Assembly (NCBI GenBank): GCA_014871385.1 | Contig: CM026421.1 | Span: 23,178,865 to 23,242,864 of the forward strand | Reading direction: 5' to 3' | From: Ceratodon purpureus | Lineage: Eukaryota > Streptophyta > Bryopsida > Pseudoditrichales > Ditrichaceae | DNA length: 64,000 bases | Part shown: positions 3,346 to 64,000 of the stretch, one piece after another | Position numbering within the stretch: the stretch's first letter is position 1 | Layout of the letters: every line of letters begins with the position of its first letter | Translations under genes and position numbers: made by a program | The notes under the pieces: model-generated | Seen by the model: only the letters and a program-made list of their open reading frames with translations | Told to the model about the DNA's origin: nothing | Databases searched by the model: none

Positions 3346-3513
3346 ACCCCCCTGAACCCGCTCGCGCCCCCCCTGAACCCGCTCGCGCCCCCCCCCTGAA
3401 CCCGCTCGCGCCCCCTCCCTGAACCCGCTCGCGCCCCCCCCCCCCTGAACCCGCTCGCGCCCCCCTGAACCCGCTCGCGCCCCCCCTGTACCCGCTCTCG
3501 CCCCCTACACATG
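3346..3513. repeat. C-rich minisatellite downstream of RING gene
   Basis: Seven to eight units of CCTGAACCCGCTCGCGCCCCC lie about 260 bp after the stop codon. They have the same unit and orientation as the upstream block, so the gene sits between two direct repeats. The Arg/Gly-rich open frames on the minus strand here are by-products of this repeat. Confidence 0.9.
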
Positions 3514-5064: not shown

Positions 5065-6213
5065 TTGTTGACTTTCCTCTAATAGTCAACGTGACACGTG
5101 TCATGCGGGGATAGCTCAGTTGGGAGAGCGTCAAACTGAAGATCTGAAGGTCGCGTGTTCGATCCACGCTCACCGCATCCACCTTTTGTCCAAATTCAAA
5201 CAACGTATGTACCTTTTAGGCCATTTCTAGAGGATTCCAACGCATTAAAAGATTTGTTATGAATTTTCAAAATATTTCACCAAAATACACCATCTCCTTG
5301 ACAAAACCAAAACTAGCTTCCACCCTTTCTCTATTGAAATCATTTATAAACTCACCATGTCTTTTTAGGAGTGGAACCTACAATGTTTGCATTGCAACAC
5401 ATCCTTTTATCAAGTCAATCAAACACCATGGCACTAAAGAGTATTCTCCCACATCTACCTACCTAGATCAAACTACCCGATAGCAATAATGCCACACGTC
5501 ACAATATGGACAACACACATTCGTCGATAAAATGCTACAAATGCCTATGCACAACACATGCAAAGAACGCTCGTTTCAGCATTAACAAGGTCCATTGCTT
5601 GCCCACTTCCGCTTGTACCAACCTCTAATAAGGTGGACTTAAAGGGTCACATGTGGCTTCAATTGAATAGGGTGCCTTCATCTTTACATTCGAAAATACT
5701 AGGGTGTCTCTAGAAGGAGGTAGAAAACAATTTTCTTTAAACCAATTAGCACCCTGGGCCATCCAGCCAATTCTTCAATTGGACTATATAGACTTGTTGA
5801 TTCAATGTGGCCTTAACCCCTAAAGGCCCTTGGTGTTTTTGGAGCCAAAACTGCCAAAAATATACCCCTAGTGATTGAAATCCACTGATGTCTAAATTTA
5901 GATTCAATATCAAATATGTAACCATAGGATCTTGTACCTGCCTTATTTAGAAAGGTATATACTATTTTCAAGGATAATCCACTATATATATTGCGACATT
6001 ATAACGTTTGAAGTCACTGTAAAAGTTTTTTTGACACTGCCCCGTGAGTATACCTAAGTTTTGATGCCCAAAAACTATACTTTGCAAACACATTTGATGT
6101 ATGGAGGATCATCAATTCCTTTAGGTATGGAAGTTAGGTATAAGCTCACAAAGTTTGAGCCTCATACCGGCTTAGAAAGGGAAAATAATCCTTGATTTTG
6201 TGAAAGGGGGGTG
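5006..6213 (+). repeat. Arm 1 of 1,208-bp inverted repeat
   Basis: Every stretch I compared is the exact reverse complement of 7530-8737 (paired positions sum to 13743). Identity starts within the tRNA-Val-like sequence and stops at 6213. The flank outside it (4790-5005 against 8738-8900) is related but clearly diverged. A dispersed repeat also found at 28.6-29.3 kb runs through the inner end of this arm into the spacer, so this arm has the ancestral arrangement. Confidence 0.93.
5105..5177 (+). tRNA. tRNA-Phe(GAA)
   Basis: A 73-nt cloverleaf from GCGGGGATAGC to CACCGCA with intact A and B boxes. The anticodon loop CTGAAGA gives GAA. It is identical to the well-known plant nuclear tRNA-Phe except that the anticodon stem reads TCAAA against TCTGA, which puts one A-C mismatch at the fourth pair. 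A TTTT terminator follows at about 5183. It lies in arm 1 of the large inverted repeat. Confidence 0.9.
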
Positions 6214-7529: not shown

Positions 7530-8737
7530 CACCCCCCTTTCACAAAATCAAGGATTATTTTCCCTTTCTAAGCCGGTATGAGGCTCAAACTTTGTGAGCT
7601 TATACCTAACTTCCATACCTAAAGGAATTGATGATCCTCCATACATCAAATGTGTTTGCAAAGTATAGTTTTTGGGCATCAAAACTTAGGTATACTCACG
7701 GGGCAGTGTCAAAAAAACTTTTACAGTGACTTCAAACGTTATAATGTCGCAATATATATAGTGGATTATCCTTGAAAATAGTATATACCTTTCTAAATAA
7801 GGCAGGTACAAGATCCTATGGTTACATATTTGATATTGAATCTAAATTTAGACATCAGTGGATTTCAATCACTAGGGGTATATTTTTGGCAGTTTTGGCT
7901 CCAAAAACACCAAGGGCCTTTAGGGGTTAAGGCCACATTGAATCAACAAGTCTATATAGTCCAATTGAAGAATTGGCTGGATGGCCCAGGGTGCTAATTG
8001 GTTTAAAGAAAATTGTTTTCTACCTCCTTCTAGAGACACCCTAGTATTTTCGAATGTAAAGATGAAGGCACCCTATTCAATTGAAGCCACATGTGACCCT
8101 TTAAGTCCACCTTATTAGAGGTTGGTACAAGCGGAAGTGGGCAAGCAATGGACCTTGTTAATGCTGAAACGAGCGTTCTTTGCATGTGTTGTGCATAGGC
8201 ATTTGTAGCATTTTATCGACGAATGTGTGTTGTCCATATTGTGACGTGTGGCATTATTGCTATCGGGTAGTTTGATCTAGGTAGGTAGATGTGGGAGAAT
8301 ACTCTTTAGTGCCATGGTGTTTGATTGACTTGATAAAAGGATGTGTTGCAATGCAAACATTGTAGGTTCCACTCCTAAAAAGACATGGTGAGTTTATAAA
8401 TGATTTCAATAGAGAAAGGGTGGAAGCTAGTTTTGGTTTTGTCAAGGAGATGGTGTATTTTGGTGAAATATTTTGAAAATTCATAACAAATCTTTTAATG
8501 CGTTGGAATCCTCTAGAAATGGCCTAAAAGGTACATACGTTGTTTGAATTTGGACAAAAGGTGGATGCGGTGAGCGTGGATCGAACACGCGACCTTCAGA
8601 TCTTCAGTTTGACGCTCTCCCAACTGAGCTATCCCCGCATGACACGTGTCACGTTGACTATTAGAGGAAAGTCAACAATGTTCTCGGCCGGGTTCGAACC
8701 GAAGACCTTCAGTCTGTTGGACTGATGTGATAACCAT
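7530..8737 (-). repeat. Arm 2 of 1,208-bp inverted repeat
   Basis: Reverse complement of 5006-6213 with no difference seen, including the tRNA-Phe and most of the tRNA-Val-like sequence. The lack of differences implies recent inverted duplication or gene conversion. Confidence 0.93.
8566..8638 (-). tRNA. tRNA-Phe(GAA), second copy
   Basis: Same 73 nt as the copy at 5105-5177, on the opposite strand in arm 2, and with the same A-C mismatch in the anticodon stem. Confidence 0.9.
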
Positions 8738-9539: not shown

Positions 9540-12500
9540 ATGTCTCTTAACAATGATGAGCATCGTGGTGCTGGGCAGTACTTCCTGAGAAGGGGGGCCA
9601 CTGACCGCTCACATCACCAATTCCCATCTGTAAGCTATCAAAGTGGAAGAAGAAGTATGTTCAGTCCACTGAGTCCACCTGCAGCAGTTTCCTTTGATGA
9701 GCGTGCACATAGAAACTCTCAGGAGCATTTCAGTGATATTCATGGATCGTGTCAAGTATATTCATCAGCTGCGCTACTGGGAGGTGGATCGATAGTGTAT
9801 CCTACACCGCAGCGTTTCCTGCCTCCTGCAAACTTACAGCAGCAGAATCAAGGATGTTCATCAGATGATCAGGTGCGATCACTTCACTCATGCCTTGAAC
9901 ATTCATACTCTCGTAACTTGACTGGAAGGATCAAATTTATCCTAAGTCATTTCAACAAGTCACTCTGTTTATATTTTGCTATGTGTTAAAAGGAAACAGT
10001 CGTGATGAATTTGGGTTCAGTTTTACCTAGCAGGTCATGAGTTCTTGATGCAGTCCCGCTTCTCCGATCATTTCCTGTCCAGCTTCCCCAATCGTTTCCC
10101 AGTCGAGCTTCTTTGATCGTTCCCTGTAGATTGCGTGTTCTAGACTCCGTTAGCGTCATATTTCACCATGTAGTACATCTGCTTGGTATCGCCGTTAACT
10201 GGTACTTTCGTAACTGCTTCATATCCGTAACAAGTCTCGGATAGTCTCATTGTAGATTTCCAACAGTGAGGCCTGGATATGCACATGTTTCGGCTGTTAG
10301 AGAAGATGATCAATTAAATAACATACAATAAACTGGGACTCGTGTGAGTACAGCAATGTAGGAAATTAGATCTTCACCTTGTAAACGTCAAGAGCGCTTT
10401 GTACCAGCTGAGAAATTACTTCGAAAACGCCACCTTGTTTTACTTCAGGTGCACAAACTTTATCGAATGTGAATGAATGCTTCCCTCCTCCTGCTGTCAA
10501 TTACAATGAAAGAAGTCAGACTACCGCATCTCAAGCAACGTTCTATACACATAAATTAACCTATTAAAAGGGATAGCACTGAACAGTTTAGGTGACAGTA
10601 GTAATTGATGTCAAGCTGTCGGTGTTGCTTCGATCAGTGGGCAGTGAATCTCGTTTTCTTTCTGGGCTTTACATGCCTTGGTGAATCGTTGCTGAGTCAT
10701 TTCTGGTGAAATTGCGGTAGAGTAAAGCTTCACATTGGATTGAAAGAAAACTTCATAGGTTCCAAAGAGGTGCAATGTGCTTAGTTCTTCAGCTTCAGAG
10801 CCTGGTGGATGTCAAAAAGTCTATCGTGCTCCCCCCATATCAGCAGCACCTCCTTCATTTGCATCTCAGTTATAAGAGAGTCTTACACAGGTATATCACA
10901 GGAGACTTCTAAACTGGACTTCAAAATTCCAGAGTGCAAAATTCAACAAGATACAGTATGTAAAATTAGAGTTTTCTACAGAGCATTCAACAGTATTCTG
11001 AATAAAACCTGAAAACAACTCGAGGGTAAGTATGGATTTTAATTAACTGACTTGCCTCTCCCCAATTGAAGCCATCAGAGATTAGGTCAATGTAAGAAGA
11101 TGCACACACCTGTGTCAAGGTAGGACGTGTGAGCGCCTCATCTGTTCCGAAGCTTGATCCCTCCGATGTGTGACTCCGATGTCCCTCCGAACATGGGTAA
11201 CTACAGTATGGTCTCGTATCAGTAAAGTTTCACATTTCGCCCTTGAGCACAGTGTCTTGCAAGTGGGCATGAAATGAAGAGACTGAAGCGGTACAGTCGG
11301 CTATATGGTCTAAATGTCACATGATGTCAACGGTTGTCAACCTGATTAATATTGTAGCACAAGTGTGGACAAATTTCATGTGTAACTATGTGAAATTTCG
11401 ATGTTACCTGCTGGTTGCAGAAGTTCAATTGCTCGACCTTGTCCCTCAGTAGAAGATGGATATTGATCAATCGCTGTCTCATTGCCATCCTAGGAGTGTC
11501 GGTTTCGCTTCTGTAGTCATACAAGAAATTCGCTGTGTATTTAATGCCATAACGAGAAGCATTCGTTCCGGCCTCTGGATCTGTAGCCAACTGGAAAGCG
11601 CTCAGCTGAATCATAGGTCCACGAGCTGAAATCTAACCAGCATAAGTTTTATTTCCACTGAGTTAGCTTGCTAAAATTATAATTCAGACAGAATGTCATT
11701 GATCAAATTCGCAAGCCCTACAATCGAATCATTAAATTTCTGTGAAATGAAAAGAGCATACATGTAGAGGAATCGAAAGTTATGTGACGACATAGAACAT
11801 ATTTGACAGGAGCTTAAAATCTACCATCCCGCAACAACCAGAATAACAAATACAAGCATTTGTCTAAACAGCACCTTCATAACATCTGCAATTGTAAATG
11901 TGCAGGTTCACCCACGCAGCACATTTGAGCTGAAATCTAACCATCTCCAATTGTAAATGTGCAGGTTCACCCACGCAGCACATTTGAGCTCCAACATCGC
12001 AACCTGCAACATAGACTGGATCGGGCATATGAGAACATTAATGATGATGAAGGAGCTGATTGCACTGGAGTACAGAACCAGTTCTCAAAACAAGTGGACC
12101 AACGACCAACACATTCGATCCAATCACGAGGTTCTGAAAGAATGTTCAACCCAGAGAGCTCACAACCTGCAGAGGATTGGAGCGCTGATGGAGGAGAGCA
12201 CCAGCAGCGAAGCAAAGACCTACAAAATTCAGAAGTAAGATCAAAACGCTCCTCCACTAAACGTAAAGTAGGACAGTGGACAGATGAGCAGATGAGAAGG
12301 GCACTGGCAGCAGTGGATAACGGTGAACCTGTGAGATCAGCAGCAGAAAGATATGATATACCTGCAAGTACCTTGGCTGATTGGGTTCATGGGCGGGTTG
12401 TGAAGAGGAAGAAAGGGCCTCCAACTGTTCTAACTGCGACTGAAGAAAGTGAACTAGAAAGATATATTTTTCTAATGCAGGAGTATGGATATCCACTGAC

Positions 12501-15500
12501 AACAGAGATGGTAAAACACAAAGTTTCAGAGATTGTGCAAGAGCGGGTGACGCCGTTCACAGATGGTATCCCAGGTTCTGGGTGGATGAGGTGGTTTAAA
12601 AAACGGCATCCAAACCTGACAATCCGTCATTCACAGGCGTTAGAGTTTTCCAGGGCTAAAAATTTGTGTCCTGAAGCTGTAAGGTCATTCTATGACAATC
12701 TTGCAAAACTAAACAACAAAGAGAACTATCCACCACAACAGATCTGGAATTGCGATGAAACAGGAGTAATGGCAGGGAAGAACGGAGGTGCAAGAGTGTG
12801 GGCTAGACGTGGTTCCCAGACAGTTCAGAAAATTGTGCCAGATGGTAGAGAATGGATGACATATCTCACATGCATCAATGCAAGTGGAGATAGCATACCT
12901 GGATTTTACATATTCCGTGGAGAAAGGATACGACAGAATTACATATCTCATTGTGAGAATGGGGCAACGATGGCTGTGCAAAAGAAAGCATGGATGACTG
13001 CAGCCTTATTCAAGGATTGGATCTCACATTTTGTGAGATCTGTGGAAGCAAAGGGCGGAATATCTACAACAAGAAGGCACTTGTTAGTTGTGGATGGCCA
13101 TGCATCACATGTAACATTAGATGTGGTCTACAAGTGCAAGGAAATTGGCTTGGACTTACTTACAATTCCAAGCCACACAAGCCATCATCTTCAGCCGCTG
13201 GATGTTGGAGTGTATGGTCCTTTCAAGCGCTACTTCCGGAATTTCAGGAACAGGTGGATACCCATAAGGGGGAAACCGGTAAGCAAAAAATTATTGGCTA
13301 AGTGGGTGTATCTGGCTATGAGAAAGGCCCTATCAGAGAGAAACATTCAATCAGGGTTTCGAGCAACGGGGATTTACCCATTTAATTCACATGCAGTTGA
13401 TAAGTATCTTGGCCCTTCCCAGTCGTTCACCCCTGCAGATGAGGCAGAAGAAGGATCTGAGGTACCGATTAGCACCCAGGCACCAAACATCTCATCTTCC
13501 AGCGAAGAAAGTGATGAAGACAACGGTACTGAACAAGACAATGTTACCAGTGGTGACGAAGCAGTGAGTGATGCAGAAAATGGACGTCAGCAGTATTTTG
13601 TTGGCTCCATCGAGCCTGGTGGCCACTCCGACGGAGACAACGGCTCTACACAGGGCGAGGGCAATCTCATGGCACCAGGTAAGGGCTTTGCACTACAAGC
13701 TTTTCATGTTATTAGCCTACAATAACCTTCAGAAATCATCCAGTCACCGGAAGGGAAATCTCCCTTGAATTCGTGAACTGGCTGTATTTCCAAGGTCATA
13801 TTTGCAGATTCTGCCTTTCTCGGTTGAATAGTACCTTCGGTCTTCCAGTTCTCTAAAGAATGTGTTCAACAAAGCCAAATTTTAGTCAATTAATATTGTC
13901 ATTGTGGCATGACTTCTGTCGAGGAACGAAATCGGACTGAATGAAAATGAACAGACAGTAACATAACATATCGATTGACATAGGCATGATCTTTTAACGA
14001 CGGTCAGAGTTGCACACCGAAGTGTAATTCTATTATATTGGCAACTACTGTTGACTTGTACAATGGAATTAACTCTCCGAAGGCTGCTCACTAATTGCTC
14101 GCTGGTAATTCTTGAGCATGTGTGAGTCTAAACTTCGAGAGCGGACGCTAGACCTTGGAGATGCCCAATTCTTTTAGAGTTGGTGGATCGTTAGGCATGG
14201 TCATCACGGTTCCACTACTCGTGGCAGATGATTTAAAGCATACCTTGAAGCCAATAACTACTATACGCTGTAACAAAATCCTGGTTTCGTAAGGACCGTG
14301 ATATGTTACAGACAAAGCTTTGTGACGTACCTGGAACTGCAGCAGAGCATTCTGGTCGTTGATACTTGCGTTGAGTGCTTGGAGTAGCCTTCGACCTCTG
14401 CGCTCCGTGAACCCTTCGACCTCTGCGCTCCGTGAACTCGTCATTTTCGAAAATACTTACAGAGAAGATTTCCTCAGATGTTCGGTGTCCTCTACAGAGT
14501 CGGTGTCCTGGTTGAGTGAGAGAGAGGATAGTAAGAGAGGATAGTTGGTTTGTCAATTTCTCTTGTTAGGTAAATTTACAGTACACAAACCACAATTAAC
14601 CCATATGGAGTGATGTTATTCATATTCTTTTAGAGTTGGTGGATCGTTGGAATTTTTAGTAGCAAAGATCTCTTCCTAAGAAAAAACACATATCACATAT
14701 GCAGTTTCGATTGAATGCAAGCTTCTGCTTCATGAGGCCAACGGAGCTATATTTGCGAAGAATCGTGCACAAAAATTTACTGAAAGGATCCGATGAATTG
14801 AAACTTGCCTGTCTCCGAGTGCAGCAGCATTTGTGGAAGCCATAACTTCGTAGGATCCAAACAAGGTAGCATGTCTCTGGAGTCTGCAGAGTGCAGATGA
14901 TCAATCCACAGCTAGTGAATGATTTTGCAATCGGGTCGTAATCGAGTAATGTGGAGGCAGGCGCTTTTCTGTCTCATACAATGACGTAGGATTTTTAAAG
15001 TATCTGACAAAGACTTATAAAGAAATGAGGTGTATTTTATTTTCAGAATTCTAGGGTATATGCACGGTTCCAAGTTCTGATCTCACCCTTCGACCAACAT
15101 ATATAATTGGTGAGGTATACTTACTTGGTTGATTAAAATTCTATTGGATGCTATGTACCTTTCTTGCCGATTCTGTGCAGGTGACGACGCTGATGGGAGC
15201 AGCGATGGGAGCAGCGACGAAGCAGCCGGTTTAGGGTTTCCTCCTGTCGAAGCTTGCAGGTTGGGTGCTTCGGCGGCACTCGGTGGCGGAGGTTCTTCGA
15301 GTCGCCTCCAAGGGCTGCTTGCCCTACCCCGCATACCTACCAAGAAGCCACGCAAAAAATACCAGGACCCCATAATCGATTACAGCAAGTCTTTGTTACT
15401 GACTTCCGAAGATTACTTGAATGCTATGCAGGAGAAAGCTGAAAAGAGAGAGGCTGTGAGACGAGAAGCAGAGCAGCGACGTACCGAAATGCAGAGAAGA

Positions 15501-44331: not shown

Positions 44332-47300
44332 ATGTCTCTTAACAATGATGAGCATCGTGGTGCTGGGCAGTACTTCCTGAGAAGGGGGGCCACTGACCGC
44401 TCACATCACCAATTCCCATCTGTAAGCTATCAAAGTGGAAGAAGAAGTATGTTCAGTCCACTGAGTCCACCTGCAGCAGTTTCCTTTGATGAGCGTGCAC
44501 ATAGAAACTCTCAGGAGCATTTCAGTGATATTCATGGATCGTGTCAAGTATATTCATCAGCTGCGCTACTGGGAGGTGGATCGATAGTGTATCCTACACC
44601 GCAGCGTTTCCTGCCTCCTGCAAACTTACAGCAGCAGAATCAAGGATGTTCATCAGATGATCAGGTGCGATCACTTCACTCATGCCTTGAACATTCATAC
44701 TCTCGTAACTTGACTGGAAGGATCAAATTTATCCTAAGTCATTTCAACAAGTCACTCTGTTTATATTTTGCTATGTGTTAAAAGGAAACAGTCGTGATGA
44801 ATTTGGGTTCAGTTTTACCTAGCAGGTCATGAGTTCTTGATGCAGTCCCGCTTCTCCGATCATTTCCTGTCCAGCTTCCCCAATCGTTTCCCAGTCGAGC
44901 TTCTTTGATCGTTCCCTGTAGATTGCGTGTTCTAGACTCCGTTAGCGTCATATTTCACCATGTAGTACATCTGCTTGGTATCGCCGTTAACTGGTACTTT
45001 CGTAACTGCTTCATATCCGTAACAAGTCTCGGATAGTCTCATTGTAGATTTCCAACAGTGAGGCCTGGATATGCACATGTTTCGGCTGTTAGAGAAGATG
45101 ATCAATTAAATAACATACAATAAACTGGGACTCGTGTGAGTACAGCAATGTAGGAAATTAGATCTTCACCTTGTAAACGTCAAGAGCGCTTTGTACCAGC
45201 TGAGAAATTACTTCGAAAACGCCACCTTGTTTTACTTCAGGTGCACAAACTTTATCGAATGTGAATGAATGCTTCCCTCCTCCTGCTGTCAATTACAATG
45301 AAAGAAGTCAGACTACCGCATCTCAAGCAACGTTCTATACACATAAATTAACCTATTAAAAGGGATAGCACTGAACAGTTTAGGTGACAGTAGTAATTGA
45401 TGTCAAGCTGTCGGTGTTGCTTCGATCAGTGGGCAGTGAATCTCGTTTTCTTTCTGGGCTTTACATGCCTTGGTGAATCGTTGCTGAGTCATTTCTGGTG
45501 AAATTGCGGTAGAGTAAAGCTTCACATTGGATTGAAAGAAAACTTCATAGGTTCCAAAGAGGTGCAATGTGCTTAGTTCTTCAGCTTCAGAGCCTGGTGG
45601 ATGTCAAAAAGTCTATCGTGCTCCCCCCATATCAGCAGCACCTCCTTCATTTGCATCTCAGTTATAAGAGAGTCTTACACAGGTATATCACAGGAGACTT
45701 CTAAACTGGACTTCAAAATTCCAGAGTGCAAAATTCAACAAGATACAGTATGTAAAATTAGAGTTTTCTACAGAGCATTCAACAGTATTCTGAATAAAAC
45801 CTGAAAACAACTCGAGGGTAAGTATGGATTTTAATTAACTGACTTGCCTCTCCCCAATTGAAGCCATCAGAGATTAGGTCAATGTAAGAAGATGCACACA
45901 CCTGTGTCAAGGTAGGACGTGTGAGCGCCTCATCTGTTCCGAAGCTTGATCCCTCCGATGTGTGACTCCGATGTCCCTCCGAACATGGGTAACTACAGTA
46001 TGGTCTCGTATCAGTAAAGTTTCACATTTCGCCCTTGAGCACAGTGTCTTGCAAGTGGGCATGAAATGAAGAGACTGAAGCGGTACAGTCGGCTATATGG
46101 TCTAAATGTCACATGATGTCAACGGTTGTCAACCTGATTAATATTGTAGCACAAGTGTGGACAAATTTCATGTGTAACTATGTGAAATTTCGATGTTACC
46201 TGCTGGTTGCAGAAGTTCAATTGCTCGACCTTGTCCCTCAGTAGAAGATGGATATTGATCAATCGCTGTCTCATTGCCATCCTAGGAGTGTCGGTTTCGC
46301 TTCTGTAGTCATACAAGAAATTCGCTGTGTATTTAATGCCATAACGAGAAGCATTCGTTCCGGCCTCTGGATCTGTAGCCAACTGGAAAGCGCTCAGCTG
46401 AATCATAGGTCCACGAGCTGAAATCTAACCAGCATAAGTTTTATTTCCACTGAGTTAGCTTGCTAAAATTATAATTCAGACAGAATGTCATTGATCAAAT
46501 TCGCAAGCCCTACAATCGAATCATTAAATTTCTGTGAAATGAAAAGAGCATACATGTAGAGGAATCGAAAGTTATGTGACGACATAGAACATATTTGACA
46601 GGAGCTTAAAATCTACCATCCCGCAACAACCAGAATAACAAATACAAGCATTTGTCTAAACAGCACCTTCATAACATCTGCAATTGTAAATGTGCAGGTT
46701 CACCCACGCAGCACATTTGAGCTGAAATCTAACCATCTCCAATTGTAAATGTGCAGGTTCACCCACGCAGCACATTTGAGCTCCAACATCGCAACCTGCA
46801 ACATAGACTGGATCGGGCATATGAGAACATTAATGATGATGAAGGAGCTGATTGCACTGGAGTACAGAACCAGTTCTCAAAACAAGTGGACCAACGACCA
46901 ACACATTCGATCCAATCACGAGGTTCTGAAAGAATGTTCAACCCAGAGAGCTCACAACCTGCAGAGGATTGGAGCGCTGATGGAGGAGAGCACCAGCAGC
47001 GAAGCAAAGACCTACAAAATTCAGAAGTAAGATCAAAACGCTCCTCCACTAAACGTAAAGTAGGACAGTGGACAGATGAGCAGATGAGAAGGGCACTGGC
47101 AGCAGTGGATAACGGTGAACCTGTGAGATCAGCAGCAGAAAGATATGATATACCTGCAAGTACCTTGGCTGATTGGGTTCATGGGCGGGTTGTGAAGAGG
47201 AAGAAAGGGCCTCCAACTGTTCTAACTGCGACTGAAGAAAGTGAACTAGAAAGATATATTTTTCTAATGCAGGAGTATGGATATCCACTGACAACAGAGA

Positions 47301-50300
47301 TGGTAAAACACAAAGTTTCAGAGATTGTGCAAGAGCGGGTGACGCCGTTCACAGATGGTATCCCAGGTTCTGGGTGGATGAGGTGGTTTAAAAAACGGCA
47401 TCCAAACCTGACAATCCGTCATTCACAGGCGTTAGAGTTTTCCAGGGCTAAAAATTTGTGTCCTGAAGCTGTAAGGTCATTCTATGACAATCTTGCAAAA
47501 CTAAACAACAAAGAGAACTATCCACCACAACAGATCTGGAATTGCGATGAAACAGGAGTAATGGCAGGGAAGAACGGAGGTGCAAGAGTGTGGGCTAGAC
47601 GTGGTTCCCAGACAGTTCAGAAAATTGTGCCAGATGGTAGAGAATGGATGACATATCTCACATGCATCAATGCAAGTGGAGATAGCATACCTGGATTTTA
47701 CATATTCCGTGGAGAAAGGATACGACAGAATTACATATCTCATTGTGAGAATGGGGCAACGATGGCTGTGCAAAAGAAAGCATGGATGACTGCAGCCTTA
47801 TTCAAGGATTGGATCTCACATTTTGTGAGATCTGTGGAAGCAAAGGGCGGAATATCTACAACAAGAAGGCACTTGTTAGTTGTGGATGGCCATGCATCAC
47901 ATGTAACATTAGATGTGGTCTACAAGTGCAAGGAAATTGGCTTGGACTTACTTACAATTCCAAGCCACACAAGCCATCATCTTCAGCCGCTGGATGTTGG
48001 AGTGTATGGTCCTTTCAAGCGCTACTTCCGGAATTTCAGGAACAGGTGGATACCCATAAGGGGGAAACCGGTAAGCAAAAAATTATTGGCTAAGTGGGTG
48101 TATCTGGCTATGAGAAAGGCCCTATCAGAGAGAAACATTCAATCAGGGTTTCGAGCAACGGGGATTTACCCATTTAATTCACATGCAGTTGATAAGTATC
48201 TTGGCCCTTCCCAGTCGTTCACCCCTGCAGATGAGGCAGAAGAAGGATCTGAGGTACCGATTAGCACCCAGGCACCAAACATCTCATCTTCCAGCGAAGA
48301 AAGTGATGAAGACAACGGTACTGAACAAGACAATGTTACCAGTGGTGACGAAGCAGTGAGTGATGCAGAAAATGGACGTCAGCAGTATTTTGTTGGCTCC
48401 ATCGAGCCTGGTGGCCACTCCGACGGAGACAACGGCTCTACACAGGGCGAGGGCAATCTCATGGCACCAGGTAAGGGCTTTGCACTACAAGCTTTTCATG
48501 TTATTAGCCTACAATAACCTTCAGAAATCATCCAGTCACCGGAAGGGAAATCTCCCTTGAATTCGTGAACTGGCTGTATTTCCAAGGTCATATTTGCAGA
48601 TTCTGCCTTTCTCGGTTGAATAGTACCTTCGGTCTTCCAGTTCTCTAAAGAATGTGTTCAACAAAGCCAAATTTTAGTCAATTAATATTGTCATTGTGGC
48701 ATGACTTCTGTCGAGGAACGAAATCGGACTGAATGAAAATGAACAGACAGTAACATAACATATCGATTGACATAGGCATGATCTTTTAACGACGGTCAGA
48801 GTTGCACACCGAAGTGTAATTCTATTATATTGGCAACTACTGTTGACTTGTACAATGGAATTAACTCTCCGAAGGCTGCTCACTAATTGCTCGCTGGTAA
48901 TTCTTGAGCATGTGTGAGTCTAAACTTCGAGAGCGGACGCTAGACCTTGGAGATGCCCAATTCTTTTAGAGTTGGTGGATCGTTAGGCATGGTCATCACG
49001 GTTCCACTACTCGTGGCAGATGATTTAAAGCATACCTTGAAGCCAATAACTACTATACGCTGTAACAAAATCCTGGTTTCGTAAGGACCGTGATATGTTA
49101 CAGACAAAGCTTTGTGACGTACCTGGAACTGCAGCAGAGCATTCTGGTCGTTGATACTTGCGTTGAGTGCTTGGAGTAGCCTTCGACCTCTGCGCTCCGT
49201 GAACCCTTCGACCTCTGCGCTCCGTGAACTCGTCATTTTCGAAAATACTTACAGAGAAGATTTCCTCAGATGTTCGGTGTCCTCTACAGAGTCGGTGTCC
49301 TGGTTGAGTGAGAGAGAGGATAGTAAGAGAGGATAGTTGGTTTGTCAATTTCTCTTGTTAGGTAAATTTACAGTACACAAACCACAATTAACCCATATGG
49401 AGTGATGTTATTCATATTCTTTTAGAGTTGGTGGATCGTTGGAATTTTTAGTAGCAAAGATCTCTTCCTAAGAAAAAACACATATCACATATGCAGTTTC
49501 GATTGAATGCAAGCTTCTGCTTCATGAGGCCAACGGAGCTATATTTGCGAAGAATCGTGCACAAAAATTTACTGAAAGGATCCGATGAATTGAAACTTGC
49601 CTGTCTCCGAGTGCAGCAGCATTTGTGGAAGCCATAACTTCGTAGGATCCAAACAAGGTAGCATGTCTCTGGAGTCTGCAGAGTGCAGATGATCAATCCA
49701 CAGCTAGTGAATGATTTTGCAATCGGGTCGTAATCGAGTAATGTGGAGGCAGGCGCTTTTCTGTCTCATACAATGACGTAGGATTTTTAAAGTATCTGAC
49801 AAAGACTTATAAAGAAATGAGGTGTATTTTATTTTCAGAATTCTAGGGTATATGCACGGTTCCAAGTTCTGATCTCACCCTTCGACCAACATATATAATT
49901 GGTGAGGTATACTTACTTGGTTGATTAAAATTCTATTGGATGCTATGTACCTTTCTTGCCGATTCTGTGCAGGTGACGACGCTGATGGGAGCAGCGATGG
50001 GAGCAGCGACGAAGCAGCCGGTTTAGGGTTTCCTCCTGTCGAAGCTTGCAGGTTGGGTGCTTCGGCGGCACTCGGTGGCGGAGGTTCTTCGAGTCGCCTC
50101 CAAGGGCTGCTTGCCCTACCCCGCATACCTACCAAGAAGCCACGCAAAAAATACCAGGACCCCATAATCGATTACAGCAAGTCTTTGTTACTGACTTCCG
50201 AAGATTACTTGAATGCTATGCAGGAGAAAGCTGAAAAGAGAGAGGCTGTGAGACGAGAAGCAGAGCAGCGACGTACCGAAATGCAGAGAAGAAGATTTGA

Positions 50301-54576: not shown

Positions 54577-57500
54577 TCACCAGTAATCACCACATGAGCA
54601 GACGCCATTTTTAAAATGGTGAAACCGATTAGCATCCCTCACTATGATCTCTCGTCCCTCCACCTTTGAGATTAACTTCGTTGCTGTATGACAATCGGTG
54701 CACACCCGAAGGTTCTCGAATACACGAATAGGATTTCCAGGGGGTGTATGCATCAGCCCATACACAATTGCCAACTTCTCACTGTGAGAGCAAATATCAA
54801 GCTCCTTGTCCTTCATGTTCCTGTTCTTCAGCACCAGCCGGGTATCAGGAATGTACCCTTCAGCCTTTAATTTTTCAATCAATTTGTCCTTATTTTCATT
54901 TATCTCCTTGCATTCTGGATGAGATAAGTCGGCTACCAGAAAATCATGAATCTTGTTATCGACTTCGATCCAGCTACGTCCTGGCTCCTTGCGGATCCCT
55001 CTCTCCCGCATCATAGTCCGCACCCCCGATACCATGTCCCAATTTCCAGATTCAGCATAGATATTAGAAAGGAGAACATATGTAGCGGCATTTTCCGGAT
55101 CCAGTTTCAGCCATTCTCTAGCAGCAAGTTCGCCCAATTCTACATTACCGTAAGTTCTACAAGAACCAAGCAGGGCTCCCCAAGTTGCTTCATCAGGTTC
55201 AACTGCCATGCTATCAATGAAGTGCTTTGCTTCCATCAAGCGTCCTGCCCGCCCCAGGAGATCCACCATGCAGTTACAATGAGACACATCAGGTTCAATG
55301 CCATACTCTTGTGTCATAGCCAAATACTGGGAAAGACCTTCCTCAACAAGGCCTGCATGACTGCATGCTGAAAGAACTGCTACAAATGTGAACCCATCAG
55401 GCTTCACATCGTGCGCAGCCATTTGTCTGAAAACTTCCAAAGCGTCCTGCCCAAGACCATGTTGTGCCAAGCCAGAAATCATCGAATTCCACGATACAAC
55501 ATCGCGCACCTTCATTCTATCAAACACCACTCGTGCATCATCAATGCTGCCACTCTTCGCATACATGTGAACAAGGGCATTGCCCACACGCACATCCAAC
55601 TCACGGCCTGCATCCAAGGCATGCCTGTGGACCTTCTTCACCCACTCCAATGCTCCCGCACTTGCACATGCATTCAAGATGCTCAAATATGTGATTGCAT
55701 CTGGCTCACAACCCTCTCCTTGCATCTGGAGAAACAGATCATATGCTTCATGACCACGCCCATGTTCTGCATATGCGCCTATCATCACATTCCACGATAC
55801 AACATCGCGCACCTTCATTCTATCAAACACCACTCGTGCATCATCGATGCTGCCACTCTTCGCATACATGTGAACAAGGGCATTGCCCACACGCACATCC
55901 AACTCACGGCCTGCATCCAAGGCATGTCTGTGGACCTTCTTCACCCACTCCAATGCTCCCGCACTTGCACATGCATTCAAGATGCTCAAATATGTGATTG
56001 CATCTGGCTCACAACCCTCTCCTTGCATCTGGAGATACAGATCATATGCTTCATGACCACGCCCATGTTCTGCATATGCGCCTATCATCACATTCCACGA
56101 TACAACATCGCGCACCTTCATTCTATCAAACACCACTCGTGCATCATCAATGCTGCCACTCTTCGCATACATGTGAACAAGGGCATTGCCCACACGCACA
56201 TCCAACTCACGGCCTGCATCCAAGGCATGCCTGTGGACCTTCTTCACCCACTCCAATGCTCCCGCACTTGCACATGCATTCAAGATGCTCAAATATGTGA
56301 TTGCATCTGGCTCACAACCCTCTCCTTGCATCTGGAGAAACAGATCAAATGCTTCATGACCACGCCCATGTTCTGCATATGCGCCTATCATCACAGTCCA
56401 TGATACAACATTGCGCACCTTCATTCTATCAAACACCACTCGTGCATCATCGATGCTGCCACTCTTCGCATACATGTGAACAAGGGCATTGCCCACACGC
56501 ACATCCAACTCACGGCCTGCATCCAAGGCATGCCTGTGGACCTTCTTCACCCACTCCAATGCTCCCGCACTTGCACATGCATTCAAGATGCTCAAATATG
56601 TGATTGCATCTGGCTCACAACCCTCTCCTTGCATCTGGAGAAACAGATCATATGCTTCATGACCACGCCCATGTTCTGCATATGCGCCTATCATCACAGT
56701 CCATGATACAACATTGCGCACCTTCATTCTATCAAACACCACTCGTGCATCATCAATGCTGCCACTCTTCGCATACATGTGAACAAGTGCATTGCCTACA
56801 CGCACATCCAACTCATGGCCTGCATCCAAGGCATGCCTGTGGACCTTCTTCACCCACTCCAATGCTCCCGCACTTGCACATGCATTCAAGATGCTCAAAT
56901 ATGTGATTGCATCTGGTTTGAATCCGTCCTGTTCCATTTCTAATATGAGTCGATATGCTTCCTTGCCATCTCCACTTTGTGCATAAGCTCCAATCATCAC
57001 AGTCCAGGAGATGATATCATGATCCATCAGGTTATCAAAAATGCGCCTTGCCTCCTGGATGGACCCACACTTTGCATACATCCCAAGAAGGGCAGTCCCC
57101 ACCCGTACATCTGATTTGAGCCCACCGTGTCTGATGCAGGCATGAACTTCTTTCCCCCATTTCAACGCTGACAAACTGGCACAAGCCTTCAAGATGATCA
57201 TGTATGTACCCGCATTTGGCTGCACATCTTCTTCATGCATTTGCCTAAAAACTCCCATTGCATCCTCAGCTTGATTGTAATCCAAATAACCTGCAATCAT
57301 TTTGTTACAGCTTCCAGCGCCCTTCTTCACAAGTCCATCAAACACATGGCGTGCCTCCTCCAGTCTTCCACATCCGATGTACACACGAAGGAGGTTACTC
57401 ACCACATAATCGTTTCGCTCCAATCCACTTTTGATGATGCAGTCATGAACCTGCTTGGCTGCCAGAAGATCCTTTTGCTCCAAGCACCGCTTCAAAACGT

Positions 57501-57597
57501 CAACATACATGTAGGAATATATAATCATGCCTCGTTGCAGACGGTTCTTCAGAACCACAAGCGCTTCACTCAAGCTATTTACACTTTGCACATGCAT
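54577..57597 (-). CDS. PPR protein, PLS class with E and DYW domains, 1006 aa
   Basis: A single exon from the first in-frame ATG at 57597 (MHVQSVNSLSEALVV). The frame is open for 20-odd codons further up without an ATG, and an acceptor-like TTAG near 57687 leaves room for an upstream exon. About 23 P, L and S motifs form PLS triplets, followed by P2-L2-S2, E1 and E2 (ATWGALLGSCRTYGNVELG onward) and a complete DYW domain with HSEKLA (zinc ligand and glutamate), CTDCH and terminal CSCGDYW. DYW proteins are C-to-U RNA editing enzymes of mitochondria or plastids. Five consecutive triplets in the middle are almost identical, and Thr/Asn at position 5 of the P motifs is the main variation. No obvious targeting peptide is seen from this start, which also hints at a missing 5' exon. 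Confidence 0.92.
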   Translation of the reverse strand: MHVQSVNSLSEALVVLKNRLQRGMIIYSYMYVDVLKRCLEQKDLLAAKQVHDCIIKSGLERNDYVVSNLLRVYIGCGRLEEARHVFDGLVKKGAGSCNKMIAGYLDYNQAEDAMGVFRQMHEEDVQPNAGTYMIILKACASLSALKWGKEVHACIRHGGLKSDVRVGTALLGMYAKCGSIQEARRIFDNLMDHDIISWTVMIGAYAQSGDGKEAYRLILEMEQDGFKPDAITYLSILNACASAGALEWVKKVHRHALDAGHELDVRVGNALVHMYAKSGSIDDARVVFDRMKVRNVVSWTVMIGAYAEHGRGHEAYDLFLQMQGEGCEPDAITYLSILNACASAGALEWVKKVHRHALDAGRELDVRVGNALVHMYAKSGSIDDARVVFDRMKVRNVVSWTVMIGAYAEHGRGHEAFDLFLQMQGEGCEPDAITYLSILNACASAGALEWVKKVHRHALDAGRELDVRVGNALVHMYAKSGSIDDARVVFDRMKVRDVVSWNVMIGAYAEHGRGHEAYDLYLQMQGEGCEPDAITYLSILNACASAGALEWVKKVHRHALDAGRELDVRVGNALVHMYAKSGSIDDARVVFDRMKVRDVVSWNVMIGAYAEHGRGHEAYDLFLQMQGEGCEPDAITYLSILNACASAGALEWVKKVHRHALDAGRELDVRVGNALVHMYAKSGSIDDARVVFDRMKVRDVVSWNSMISGLAQHGLGQDALEVFRQMAAHDVKPDGFTFVAVLSACSHAGLVEEGLSQYLAMTQEYGIEPDVSHCNCMVDLLGRAGRLMEAKHFIDSMAVEPDEATWGALLGSCRTYGNVELGELAAREWLKLDPENAATYVLLSNIYAESGNWDMVSGVRTMMRERGIRKEPGRSWIEVDNKIHDFLVADLSHPECKEINENKDKLIEKLKAEGYIPDTRLVLKNRNMKDKELDICSHSEKLAIVYGLMHTPPGNPIRVFENLRVCTDCHTATKLISKVEGREIIVRDANRFHHFKNGVCSCGDYW
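55487..56915 (-). repeat. 303-bp tandem repeat within the PPR gene
   Basis: About 4.7 units with a strict 303-bp (101-codon) period, each encoding one PLS triplet. Marker word GTGCATCAT recurs at about 55534, 55837, 56140, 56443 and 56746. Units differ by only a few bases. The repeats also create a 330-codon open frame on the plus strand (55411-56403), which is a shadow. Confidence 0.93.
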
Positions 57598-57951
57598 ATT
57601 ACCACCACCTTCCACAATTTGACCCAACGCTCTCGCACTTTCACATGCAGTAACTAATTTTCCATCGTTGTCCTTGGCTTGCCTAATTCATCGACAGATT
57701 CTGCATTACTTCCACTTCAAGCAGAAATCGCCAATTCACAAAGTGAACGATGAAATGCAATTTATTTACTGTACAGAAACGTTGCATACATGCATCCTCA
57801 GCATACATCACAATCTTCACATTTCTACCACAAAGAGCAATCCCACCAGACGTGCAATTAAAAGTGCAAAGCAAGGCAAGCAAGAGTGGTACAAGCCAAA
57901 TCCTCAATATAACTCAAACCCTAGATTTAGGCTGCACTGCTGTCCTTGCTG

Positions 57952-58382: not shown

Positions 58383-60500
58383 CTGCAATCAATTTCATAC
58401 ATGTCAGTCCATCATTCCAGAAGGGACGCATAATAGTTTTTAAATAATATCTCATGATTTGCTGAAATGAGGAAGAGGTGGATTCATTGAGTGGTTCTAA
58501 CTCTTTAGAGCTCGTACCGATCCCAAAAACCTCTCAAAGATTATCCTCAAAGACTGAAACAAATCTGATTTCCAAAAAACGCTCAAACTTGGATGCAAAC
58601 GACACAATTCACCTCCAGATTGACGAGAAGAAGACTCGACAGACATGGATGAGAAGCTCCAAGGAAGAGATGCCCACAAGTCAAACCTACGCCCCAGCAG
58701 CAGCGAGGGCAAGCCACCTCTCGCTCTTCCAGCTCCCTGGTGCAACATTTCTAACCTTCGGGTACCTACCAATACATCATCAAGCTAGGAACTGAGAGAA
58801 TCATCAAGCATTCGAGACAGAGTAGGACACTAGTAAATATACAGCATTATTCACTATCTGGGCAACGAGTATCCTAAATCTTCAATTCCAAGCTCTCAAG
58901 AAATTTTGAAGACCCACTGCAGCTTTGGCTCATGGTTCAAAATAGAAATGTGGCAGTTCGGCACATATTCTTCTGTGAATTTGATAATTCAGCAACACAT
59001 TACAATTTTGCGCAAATGTATAAATTCCAGCACGCTGGCTTTAGAGTAAAAGTCACACGATTGATTCCTGTTTAACAGTATTTAAGGGTTTAGGGTTTTA
59101 TGAAGTATTTATTACTTCATGAATTTGCTACGTGTTTATCCCTGCACAACCATACAATGTCTTTTTTGGACAGTAAAACCCAGTGACAAGAGGCATAGAT
59201 ACTCTATTGCTAGCCTCAATGTACGAAGAAATTTAACTTACGAACCAAGCACTGCATTGCCGCCTGAAAAAATTGCTACACTGATGTGAGAATTAATTGA
59301 CCAATTCTGGAAAAACACTACAAAATTTCACGATACAAAACTACTTCTATTGTGAGTGTAAATTCCTAGGTGAATCATCCGCTTAAGAGGGTTAGCTTTA
59401 CACACAGCCTACAACAAATGAACGTGCCAGATAAAGTTCTGTCAGCTTGTGAGTTCTTTACGAATGAAGAAGTCACCATCTCTGGTGTGACAAGAATGGC
59501 AAGAAGTAGATGACAACCGACCCACAACCACATTGTCTGCAACACCTTGCAAGGCAAACTCACGGGGGCTAAACAGCTCTATTGTCTGTAGAATGAGCAT
59601 TCTAGAGACATTATTATTTTTTAAAATTTAAAAAGAGGAAAAAAAAAAGATTGAACTTGAACCTGTGGATGGTTTGGTCGCTCCGCAGCAAAGCTCCAGA
59701 TGCACGCTGAAGCTAAACCGCTGCACGGCCCGAAGCTCCTCCTCGCAGCACTTGCAAGCATCCTCCGCGGTCCGCACCTCTACCGGGTCCCCTGCTCTGA
59801 CAATAAATCGGATCCCCTCGGAATGCAGTGCGATAATTGCAACTCGCGAGAAGACAACCCAAACGATGTACAATGCGCATCGATGTGCCGCTCCAAGGAC
59901 AAAGGCGTTCCGAGGACAAACACGAAAGGCAAGCAGGAGCGAAATGGGCTACGAATGGAAGTCCGCTGGCCGCAGCCTTAAATCTGCAGCCCACCTCTTG
60001 CTTGCAGTGGAGAATGCAAGGTTTACAAACTTCCCCTGACTATAATCCTCGCCCACGTCTTAACGGCGTTCGCTATTTCTGTTCCCTTCCGCGGCGGTCC
60101 CGCGAGACAGGGCCCACGGCGCGAGACCCTTCTTTCGCTCCAGAATTCTTTCCGTCGCTCCCCCTTCTCGCGAGCCGTGTCCGGGCTCGGGATGCCACGT
60201 CGGACCCCGTCTCGAAACCCTCCCTGCCACGTCTGCATCCTCCACCTTGTCTCGTCTCGGAACCCAGAAAGACGAGACACCCCATGCATGGGCTGTCTCG
60301 CGAGACAGCCTCATGGCACTATGGCCCATGGGCATGCATGGAGATTTTCATCCATCCGAGACGGATAGAATTCGTCACGTCCTGTCGAATGACCTTCCAC
60401 GTTTTAGGGTATGATGTCTCATTTTCGTGGGTGTCACTTCTGCTCTCTCCTGTCACTTCTGCTTTCAGTCTGTCTCGTCGGAGCTGTTTCGGGTGTTGAG
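58383..60500. other. Upstream part of OSB gene and intergenic DNA
   Basis: Should contain the missing 5' OSB exons on the minus strand. From about 60.1 kb on, CGAGACA words become frequent (see findings). Confidence 0.4.
60294..60307. promoter_or_regulatory. Palindrome TGTCTCGCGAGACA
   Basis: A perfect 14-bp palindrome with core TCTCGCGAGA, which in animals is a known promoter element. Here it is two head-to-head copies of the heptamer that recurs throughout 60.1-64 kb. Confidence 0.6.
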
Positions 60501-60726
60501 GTGATGATGGGGTTCTGTGGGTGGAGATCATGCGCCGTCTCTTGCAGCCTTTTCCTCGATTTTGATTTCTGAGGTTTAGTAGGTGTGATGATGGCGTCTC
60601 CCCCCTGCTCTGTGTTTAAATTGGCAGCCTCCTGGAAAACCGGACTCATTTTATGCCATTGCCTGAGGAGAGTTGCGAGAGTTGTCTCGTGGGGTGGTGA
60701 GAGTGTTCCCTCGAGAGGAGGTGCGA

Positions 60727-60737
60727 GGGTTTATATG
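60727..60737 (+). promoter_or_regulatory. Possible TATA box of the 61.5-kb gene
   Basis: GGTTTATATGC lies about 280 bp before a good donor at 61010 (GAG|GTATGT), which would end a leader exon. Telomere-box words (GGGTTTAGGGTTTAGG at 61141-61156) lie in the following intron. Inferred. Confidence 0.35.
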
Positions 60738-61556
60738 CGCGCGTTGTCGAAGTTTGCTAATTTCTCTGCCAATTTCTCTCCGTTTCCTTCTCCGCTGTCT
60801 CGCGCCATTGTTAGATGTGTTGCGCTTAGTATTTGTGAGGTGGAGAGTGTTGTGCGAGAGGCGCTTTCATGGGCGGAGAGTGTTGTGATAGAGTTTGAGA
60901 GTGTTGTGAGAACTGAGGAGTCGGAGTCTGTTGCTGGAGCCGCGATCCAGGAGTTTGTGCGATTTGCTCGGAGGAGGAGTGCAGAGGCGATTTCGCTGAG
61001 ACAATCGAGGTATGTATACGTTCATCATCTTCTATGTGTTTGTTTTTATGGTGTTCCGGAGAGACGAGAGCGATTTTGTTGCCGGAGTTTGTCACAGAGA
61101 TTAGTTTTAGGGTTTAGTAGTCATACGTCACGACGTTCTGGGGTTTAGGGTTTAGGATAGACATGTCTCGTGGAATAGTGTTCAGGTGTATCTTGTCTGC
61201 GGTCGTTGTGGGTGGGCTCGCTGCTAATGTCAAAATGAAATGAGGACGACGATGTCGCCCCCATTACAGGAGTGTCTCGCGTTGGAATTGGAAGGGAGTT
61301 CCTGAGGATACCAATTTTGTGCATAGAATCTTAATTTCTGTCCCGATTCGTCGTTCATGTTTCGCCGAGACAACGATCCATCGTAGAGGCTCCTTCCTGT
61401 CGTCCACAGTTCCTGCCGAATTTGATGTGCACGGTTTTTGCTTCGCAGTTGTCTCGCAGTCTCGCCCCTATGTCTGTGTCTCGGAAGGCCTTATAAACTT
61501 CGCATCCAGGTTACTAACCTCCGCCCCTGTTTGTTTTAGGTTCAAGTTAGCGAGAC

Positions 61557-64000
61557 ATGGCTCCCGAGTACAGGAGGAACCTCCAGATCACGGACGACGG
61601 CGTCACGGAGGTCCACGAAAGCGACAAGAAGCTGTTTACGGAACACTACACATGGGAGGAGTGGAAGAGTTTGCTCCTGGAGTGTCATAGCGCGCCGGTG
61701 ATGTTAGGACGTCGATTGTTCTGCTGCAAGCACGAATGCCGTGGCAAGAATGGGGAGCCCATGTGTGCTCAGAAGGCGCGTCTGAATACTCATAGGTGGC
61801 ACGGGTGCCCCCTAAATGTCGACGCGAACTGTAACGTCATCCCGGAGAAGATGTACCCGAATCTGCTTGAGAAGAACGTTACCATTGACAAGCTGCAAGC
61901 GGGTGTCTCGCCCCAGAAGTTGGTGAGGGACTACGTGAACGAGACACAGGCTATGTTGCGTCGAGGTGAGCCGGTTAAATTCCAACAAGGCGTCCCTGCG
62001 ATTCGTGGTCCGAGTGGTAGATCGCCGAAGAAGCAGACGAAGAAACCCATGAAGGCCGAGACAAAAACTGTCCCTGATAGGTTGGCTGTGAGGACTTATG
62101 ATATGGTGCTCAGCAGTTCAGATTCCGAGGCAGAGGCAGACAGTGACTTTGAGGCCTCGGACTCGCCCGTGGTGGAGCGAAGACCCCATAGTAGGCCCCC
62201 GTTCATCGCCAATCCCGAGACAGCACCGACGCCTGCTGTTGTCCCTATCATCCTCTCACCGCCCCGGCGAGACACATCTGCAGGCGAAGACGACGCCACG
62301 GGAGCTGTACCTGATACGTTTGTCGTTGTTCCTCGGGCAGGACTCCCTCCTCGACAGCGAGACAAATAAGGACGAGATATTTCTGTGAGGGCTTATAAGC
62401 CGGTGAAGGAACTCGAGGACAGGGAGTTTAACTCTCGGAAAAAAAAACGCAAGACAACCCCGGCACAGAAGGTCCCAGCGGCAAAGAGCGAGACAAACAC
62501 GACGGCAACGAAGCGACCGAAACCATCGGACGAGAAACCGCCATCCCCAATCCGGGACAAGACAGCCGGATACGCCTCGGATACGTCTCGGATACGTCCC
62601 GGATACGGCTCTAATACGCCCGTCTCCACTCCCACTGTCCACACAGAGGATACTGGAGCGGAGGCTATGGTGGTCGACGAGGCCCCGATGGAGGTTCCCC
62701 TGAGCACAATGTCCGCCTTAATGCGAGACAAGGAGAAGGTTGTGGAGGAGGCTCAAGAGGCAGCGGAGTCCCTGTTCACACTAGATCCAATTCGCCAGCC
62801 CGAGACACGCTTGGGACACACGGGCCTCACCATCCTAATGGATTACGGACTTTTTGGGGAGGAGAGGGAGTTCCACACGTGGGACAGGGGAACTCTTCGG
62901 ACCAGACTGGGGGAGTTTTTGAAGAAGGAGGGGCTCGAGACAATCATCTCGCTTACCTACTTCCAATTCCAGAAGTTGAATCGAAAGGTACGGCATCTCC
63001 TCCCTGGAGTTCTCAACTTATTTATTTTATAATAACTTGTATTTGTCGTTAATATGTTGCGATATTTTAATTCTTTTTCGTCTATCTTTCATACTTGTCT
63101 CGCACTTCAATCTGTGCCTCAAGGTTGCTAACGGGGGAGGACTGCCGTACTCTCTGAATTGCAGAATTCTCTATACTCCGAGAGAGATAGCGGTCTAGCG
63201 GCAGATCTTTCTGAAGTGTTGGACACCGGGGAAATGTCCGAGACAGAGATGGACCGTCTCGCGAACGCCTCCATGGACTACTACGTCAATGTCCACGACT
63301 CGAAGAAACACGAGGAGGCCGTAGATGCCCAGCGCCTTCATAACGCCAGTCTGAAGGAGAAATTCATCGCAGACAGGGTTGCAGCGTGGGAGGAGTCCAA
63401 GGCTGGGGAGTTGGAGGAAGTGTCATGGGGTTGGAATCCTCTGTACCACATATGCGCGAAGAACCCCGCTGTCTCGGAGAGGCTACCTCCCATGCCCTGG
63501 AAGCACAACGAAACGGAGGCGCGAGACGTGGTCAAGGCACTCGGTACGAGACGGACGCTGCCAATCGGAGCAGGCCTGGAGCCAAAGATCATTCGCGTTT
63601 TCCTCCTCGTCCACAATATTTGGTACAGGTCAGTAGAGTGTACTTGTTTATTTTTATTTTTTCGTCCTGAGGTACCTTATTCAATTCAAACTAATTTTGA
63701 AAAAAAAAAAACGGCACGGGCCCCTCATATTCTCCTCGTGCTCTGGTATACCAGCTCAGCGGACCCACTGCAAGGAGCACTGGACAAAAGTGTCCAGGAG
63801 AAGTTGTCTTTGCCTGGAGCTCTAGACACAGCGAGGTGTCTCGTTCAGGCCGCTGGGAGTACACTATTTGCTGCTGATCCAGTCGCGGAGACGGCGGACG
63901 CCATTACAGCAGCATGCATGTCCCTCCAGGGCGGTGTCTTGGATGCCCTGCAGGCGTGGCTCCTGACAGTCCAGGCTCGGGCACTGGAAGACTTTGCAGC
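61557..64000 (+). CDS. Unidentified multi-exon gene, 5' part, runs off window
   Basis: A leader intron 61010-61539 (GAG|GTATGT to TTGTTTTAG) precedes the ATG at 61557 (agacATGG, MAPEYRRNLQITDDG). Block 1 (61557-62369) holds a Cys/His cluster (CCKHEC, then C, then HRWHGC) that could bind zinc, then a basic and an acidic Ser/Asp region. Block 2 (62370-62987) adds KKKRKTTPAQK, a nuclear-signal-like stretch, and ends at donor AAG|GTACGG. Exon 63165-63628 and an exon from 63755 to the window end follow with matching phases (introns 62988-63164 and 63629-63754). The frame is not continuous between blocks 1 and 2, so this copy is interrupted once or has an unseen intron. No domain recognised; FAR1/MULE-like zinc binding is only a guess. 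It could be a host gene or part of a mobile element. The coding sequence carries the CGAGACA heptamer in several frames. Confidence 0.5.

Follow-up and report, generated by a model that had tools for sequence, protein, structure and literature searches.

A family-specific heptamer array over a Mutator-like transposon of the moss Ceratodon purpureus, and what might read it

Why should a single seven-letter word, CGAGACA (TGTCTCG on the opposite strand), crowd one end of a 64,000-nucleotide stretch of Ceratodon purpureus DNA (contig CM026421.1, positions 23,178,865 to 23,242,864; hereafter the window), when the first 60 kb of that stretch hold only 3 scattered copies? The preliminary description of the window placed 37 copies of the hexamer CGAGAC, 28 of them full heptamers, between 60.1 and 63.85 kb, and these counts are exact. 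What it took for a gene with a leader, by contrast, is one end of a Mutator-like DNA transposon with terminal inverted repeats (TIRs), a target-site duplication and a transposase gene; and although the array does occupy the stretch it named, it is not confined there but runs on to the far end of the 11,108-bp element, which holds 75 heptamers and 109 hexamers in all. Such an array could be a family-specific address label, read by a DNA-binding protein that the element itself encodes and that would counteract silencing in the manner of the VANC proteins of Arabidopsis VANDAL transposons; we put the probability of this reading at roughly 0.5.

One word over one transposon

The element begins at window position 60034 and ends at C1:23250005, about 7.1 kb beyond the window end. 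Members of the Mutator superfamily (Mutator-like elements, MULEs) are recognized by TIRs and by the roughly 9 bp of target sequence that they duplicate, and both are present here, in the form of 317-bp TIRs and of the 9-bp sequence ACAAACTTC on either side. The terminus at 60034 reads CCCTGACTATAATCC, and the inverse of CCCTGACTATAATCC ends the element on the right. The limits of the array coincide with these ends: heptamers run to about C1:23250000, and the next 7 kb contain none. That adjoining tract (C1:23250006-23257000) is an AT-rich block with a GC fraction of 0.28-0.35 per kb, unlike its surroundings. Gene models built from reading frames and GT-AG splice signals place two convergent genes in the element, a transposase gene on the minus strand and a five-exon second gene on the plus strand.

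How unusual is this density? The preliminary description had named two findings that would undo its claim of an excess over chance, namely a genome-wide density as high as here and a count that disappears in shuffles preserving codon and dinucleotide usage. Instead, the genome contains 26,404 heptamers (13,165 + 13,239) in 362,488,568 bases, i.e. one per 13.7 kb, from which about 0.28 would be expected in 3.8 kb (28 observed) and 0.8 in the whole element (75 observed). Since the reversed control word has even more genomic copies (38,407), the word is enriched in the element without being enriched genome-wide; and of twelve 6-kb control blocks, ten taken from the window and two from the sequence past the element, each has 0-1 heptamers. 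Dinucleotide shuffles of the element (n=1000) gave a mean of 2.4 and a maximum of 9 heptamers. When synonymous codons were shuffled (500 shuffles each), the second gene, with 23 heptamers, yielded a mean of 3.1 and a maximum of 9 (5.5 and 12 if dinucleotides at codon junctions were also kept), and the transposase gene, with 10, a mean of 1.2 and a maximum of 5 (2.4 and 8, respectively), so that all observed counts lie above the shuffle maxima.

The word is evenly divided between orientations (39 forward, 36 reverse) and is sharply defined, in that 19 of its 21 one-mismatch variants number 0-6 each against 75 exact copies. The two exceptions are CGAGACG (26 copies), which represents a second form of the word, and CAAGACA (12 copies), the remainder to be expected of a CpG transition within it. 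Flanks of the hexamer are weakly biased, for example towards G after position 7 (48 of 109). Inferred exons hold 33 of the 75 heptamers, and the non-coding parts are denser: there are 21.8 heptamers per kb in the transposase introns, 15.8 in the TIRs, 7.6 in other non-coding sequence and 6.8 in the introns of the second gene, compared with 5.4 in the exons of that gene and 3.7 in the transposase exons. None of the three reading frames of the second gene is free of the word, and 10 of its 23 copies there give a tripeptide of the form xET. Because the word stands on both strands, in several frames and in coding as well as non-coding sequence, and exceeds synonymous shuffles, the constraint acts on DNA; the earlier claim that it does not lie on the protein is thereby borne out.

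Several other readings of the array were examined and set aside. Tandem Repeats Finder (TRF) detects within the array range just a local 11-bp repeat (62567-62621), and no repeat unit or repeat family covers the array. Repetition driven by the protein is ruled out by the several reading frames and the synonymous shuffles, and among known structured RNAs Rfam reports two tRNAs alone in the window. The sites show neither helical phasing (R 0.08 at 10.5 bp) nor strictly even spacing (coefficient of variation of the gaps 0.83 versus 0.98 at random, with 5.9% of 5000 simulations equally even). The sole place in the element that resembles the remnant of a tandem array is in a transposase intron (L009:9460-9580), where four heptamers follow one another in steps of 27 or 54 bp. 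A ranking of words that had at least three different letters showed strong enrichment in some control blocks as well, owing to tandem repeats.

Retention and replacement of the word among relatives

A genome search with a 270-residue query from the second gene returned 36 matches, 18 of which cover the full query at 92-100% identity, the window copy included; 8 of these 18 lie on C6, and the 17 other than the window copy have open frames of 351-493 amino acids, although in 4 of these 17 a stop interrupts the match. On C6 there is also a diverged copy, 80% identical outside the motifs, which has kept 30 of 72 sites, versus 202 of 1000 control words of equal GC content and with one CpG (Fisher 5.7e-5). 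Counted by hand, 18 of the 42 lost sites differ from the word by one transition at its CpG, and of the 10 sites unique to that copy 8 are one substitution away from the word. Further pairwise tests, made over the left 3.8 kb and covering 13 of the 29 other second-gene loci, found the motif retained above controls in all 13, with p < 0.05 in 10, although these p values are approximate because the copies share ancestry, one of them (L033) is part of the diverged C6 copy, and the control words overlap.

What happens at greater distances? Six related loci were selected by protein similarity, not at random; one has a CGAGAC array, four have a different word, AGTGTCAC, and one has neither. The first of these, L044, carries the same two genes (transposase pieces 50-51% and second-protein pieces 25-29% identical to those of the window element) and 50 copies of CGAGAC in 10 kb; position 7 does not favour A there. 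In the aligned coding parts the window element has 27 hexamer sites and L044 has 24, and only 2 fall at the same position; judged from these alignments, the word stays equally dense although its sites change place. The preliminary description looked for homologues that keep the motif where the protein is not conserved; the diverged copy, the 13 comparisons and L044 show this, also where positions are not conserved.

The four loci with the other word are more distant. Transposase pieces of L043 and L047 are 38-41% identical to the window element, and second-protein pieces of L046, L047 and L049 are 21-36% identical to it. CGAGACA is absent from L043, and L046, L047 and L049 have 1, 2 and 2 copies of CGAGAC; AGTGTCAC, by contrast, occurs 9, 14, 9 and 12 times in L043, L046, L047 and L049, respectively, where 0.2-0.4 would be expected. 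Genome-wide there are 14,080 copies of AGTGTCAC versus 14,012 of its reversed control. One AGTGTCAC cluster, picked by its word pattern alone among 100 places listed, was opened and turned out to be an element of 15.5 kb. Its TIRs measure 303-317 bp and are 92% identical, and the 9-bp target duplication reads ATACGAACA. It encodes an Ulp1-like protein and a transposase resembling that of the window element (31-53% identity in the significant pieces), and it contains all 28 of the AGTGTCAC copies in the 18 kb fetched. Elsewhere, near the start of a contig (G000:C1:2403-3933), five AGTGTCAC words follow at steps of about 381 bp, perhaps as part of a satellite repeat.

Three further MULE loci were taken from 93 genome matches. 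Two of them, L052 and L054, picked irrespective of Ulp1, belong to one family and bear arrays of a third sequence, TGATGGGTATT, and in L053 the top words form a local tandem repeat only. The word GATGGGTA is present 17 times in L052 and 15 times in L054, mostly inside TGATGGGTATT and often at steps of about 46 bp, flanking the transposase gene in opposite orientation on its two sides. No TIR was found at L052 or L054 in the 6 kb read, and their layout is closer to that of VANDAL21.

A candidate reader and its rivals

A sharp, family-specific, double-stranded word that covers exactly one mobile element, is kept under divergence and is swapped for another in distant families is the pattern expected if a protein of that element binds to it. 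The preliminary description had offered such a binding-site array as one of several options, and it appears to us the best of them. Which protein might bind? The transposase is identified by PF10551 (E 1.1e-14; 55.1 bits versus a cut-off of 27.6), followed by a SWIM-like CxC...CxH stretch recognized by eye, ahead of which this copy has two stops in frame. The last exon of the second gene is Ulp1-like: a profile built from five relatives hits PDB 6dg4, an Ulp1-like SUMO protease (5.3e-7), whereas single-sequence Pfam scans of the second protein did not reach the C48 domain and the relative L046 reaches it at E 0.14 only. Ulp1-type proteases use a His-Asp-Cys set of catalytic residues. This set is not intact in the present family, which has HLGS, or in L044, which has LLGT; L046, L047 and L049 have HLDS, the Asp of which we take to be the usual catalytic residue and which is Gly in the two former.

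Systems are described in which a transposon protein recognizes its own element. VANC21 binds YAGTATTAY and VANC6 targets carry AGTTGTCC or AGTTGTAC, each protein recognizing a different short motif of its own family, and the motifs sit in non-coding tandem repeats in one orientation (PMC5735166); motif density matters, and where the protein binds, methylation is lost, an effect that extends across the element (PMC5735166; PMC10398659). The preliminary description knew of no gene family with such a pattern, but the VANDAL transposons do show one (PMC5735166). A review adds that some VANC genes carry an Ulp1 domain, and that MULEs with Ulp1 form the KIU/Kaonashi group in Arabidopsis, where they are described as non-TIR, and also occur in grapevine, melon and rice (PMC13317346). 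With VANDALs the moss element shares its Mutator-like nature, a second gene beside the transposase, a family-specific short motif that is dense in the element and sparse elsewhere, and related families with different motifs; with KIU/Kaonashi it shares a MULE transposase alongside a protein with an Ulp1-like domain, but it differs from that group in its 317-bp TIRs and in the Gly at the Asp position.

In the reading preferred here, the reader would most likely be the product of the second gene, alone or with the transposase, and would recognize CGAGAC with A or G as the next base. Its numerous sites over all 11 kb would allow it to mark the whole element and to tell it from host DNA, in which single sites are sparse. 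By analogy with VANC, it might then strip the element of silencing marks or block them, whereupon the element genes could be expressed and the element could move. A bolder generalization, which we regard as doubtful, would be that TIR-bearing MULEs of this moss write a family word throughout their length, exons included, that selection on word density shapes codon choice, and that an Ulp1-derived element protein, in the present family without its catalytic Asp, reads the word and lifts silencing over the whole element.

Several observations weigh against a VANC-like reader. The sites in the TIRs would fit binding by the transposase equally well. Three of the 13 retention tests (L016, L020, L036) were not significant, and shared ancestry and overlapping control words weaken the tests as a group. 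The word common to L044 and the window element may have been inherited rather than independently kept, and L048 carries the second protein but neither CGAGACA nor AGTGTCAC. Pfam scans of pieces of the second protein found no known DNA-binding domain, and structure prediction of its first 169 residues gave no confident N-terminal fold (predicted local distance difference test, pLDDT, 41). Pfam scans of its pieces at E up to 1, and in one case up to 10, gave no hit to DUF1985 or DUF287, the domains of VANC, although a distant homology is possible. VANDAL TIRs are degenerate (PMC10398659), as opposed to the long TIRs of the moss element; and the moss sites are also exonic, on both strands and mostly outside tandem repeats. 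The element looks as if it worked in a VANDAL/VANC-like way; the long TIRs, the domains not found and the exonic sites in both orientations nevertheless place it, by the tests made, outside that group.

Could the sites instead be the transposase's own binding code, with those at the ends used for transposition and the internal ones for synapsis, titration or copy control, in the way that CACTA elements use their subterminal motifs? The TIRs are indeed among the densest parts, the word tracks transposase relatedness (CGAGAC is shared at about 50% identity and not at about 38%), and the two loci chosen irrespective of Ulp1 have arrays of another word flanking the transposase gene. However, the word tracks the relatedness of the second protein equally well, and sites that pervade introns and exons through all 11 kb are far more than end recognition requires, which makes this explanation rather unlikely in our estimate. 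Alternatively, the array might have arisen without any selection, by local repetition or mutation bias, and have spread as the element multiplied. The 27-bp spacing of some transposase-intron sites, the tandem-derived arrays of other moss MULEs and the strongly enriched words produced by tandem repeats elsewhere in the window speak for this. This origin is nonetheless quite improbable, as no repeat unit covers the array, most copy-specific sites of the diverged copy (8 of 10) are a single substitution from the word, the word is retained above controls, and families differ in its positions at like density.

The presence of TGTCTC within the word is the reason for considering a host reader, namely auxin response factor (ARF) proteins that would bind the sites as auxin response elements and activate the element. 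ARFs bind TGTCNN, and TGTCTC was among the earliest auxin response elements (PMC10690724). TGTC is contained in both CGAGACA/TGTCTCG and AGTGTCAC, and TGTCTC reaches 73.8 per 10 kb in the element versus 6.3 in the rest of the window. The preferred TGTCGG, on the other hand, is no more frequent in the element (1.8 per 10 kb) than in the rest of the window (2.0), inverted (IR7/8) and direct (DR4/5) repeat pairs are absent and a single everted one (ER8) is present, and neither the sharp seventh base nor the placement of sites throughout coding DNA is required by ARF sites. We consider this improbable, and slightly less so than an array without selection. Least probable of all is that the word acts in RNA, in export, processing or escape from small RNAs. 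Nothing direct favours this, apart from sites falling in inferred exons and introns; and the even orientation, together with a density in TIRs and other non-coding sequence at least equal to that of exons, fits a double-stranded DNA signal better.

What would a VANC-like reader in a moss imply? It would mean that sequence-specific anti-silencing exists far outside flowering plants, being either ancestral to land plants or independently evolved. No account of VANDAL-type anti-silencing in bryophytes, of Ulp1-linked Mutator-like elements in moss or of a Mutator motif in C. purpureus was found in searches of an open-access subset of the literature. The VANDAL work itself asks how the reader of a short motif can pick out its own transposon over several kilobases, and how such a protein and its motif evolve jointly. 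A separate study reportedly deals with their co-evolution in eudicots. Here, Mutator-like elements of one genome bear three motif arrays (CGAGACA, AGTGTCAC and TGATGGGTATT), with relatives at graded distances, and copies of one word in exons allow selection on the word to be separated from selection on the protein. Whether reader and label co-evolve can thus be tested in a haploid moss far from Arabidopsis.

Feature coordinates and other observations

Table 1. Coordinates of the transposon, its parts and two further loci (window positions unless a contig is named)
Feature	Position	Strand	Basis or remark
Target-site duplication ACAAACTTC, left copy	60025..60033		Same 9 bases flank the element at either end
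Mutator-like transposon (11,108 bp), left 3,967 bp	60034..64000	+	TIRs, target-site duplication, transposase
Left TIR	60034..60349		97.2% identity to right TIR, 317 aligned columns
CGAGACA/TGTCTCG array, part in the window	60103..63843		28 heptamers (15 forward, 13 reverse), 37 hexamers
Second gene, exon 1	61557..62987	+	Frames, GT-AG; in-frame TAA at 62367-62369 in this copy
Second gene, exon 2 (inferred)	63165..63628	+	Frames, GT-AG sites
Second gene, start of exon 3 (inferred)	63755..64000	+	Frames, GT-AG; ends at 64143, beyond the window
Target-site duplication ACAAACTTC, right copy	directly after C1:23250005		Outside the window
L052	G000:C1:26253200-26259199		Mutator-like locus with TGATGGGTATT arrays
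L054	G000:C6:62489000-62494999		Mutator-like locus with TGATGGGTATT arrays

The remainder of the window has features of its own. A reading frame of 1016 amino acids on the minus strand (54577-57627), named PPR-type by eye, includes a 303-bp tandem repeat (55478-56916; 4.7 copies, 98% matches). Four tandem repeats found in 10053-15217 occur again in 44845-50009, each of them shifted by 34,792 bp, and this suggests that a segment was duplicated. Two tRNA-Phe genes with equal Rfam scores lie in opposite orientation at 5104-5181 (plus strand) and 8562-8639 (minus strand), and two arrays of a C-rich 20-23-bp unit resembling CCCGCTCGCGCC are found 3.3 kb apart, at 78-357 and 3347-3505.

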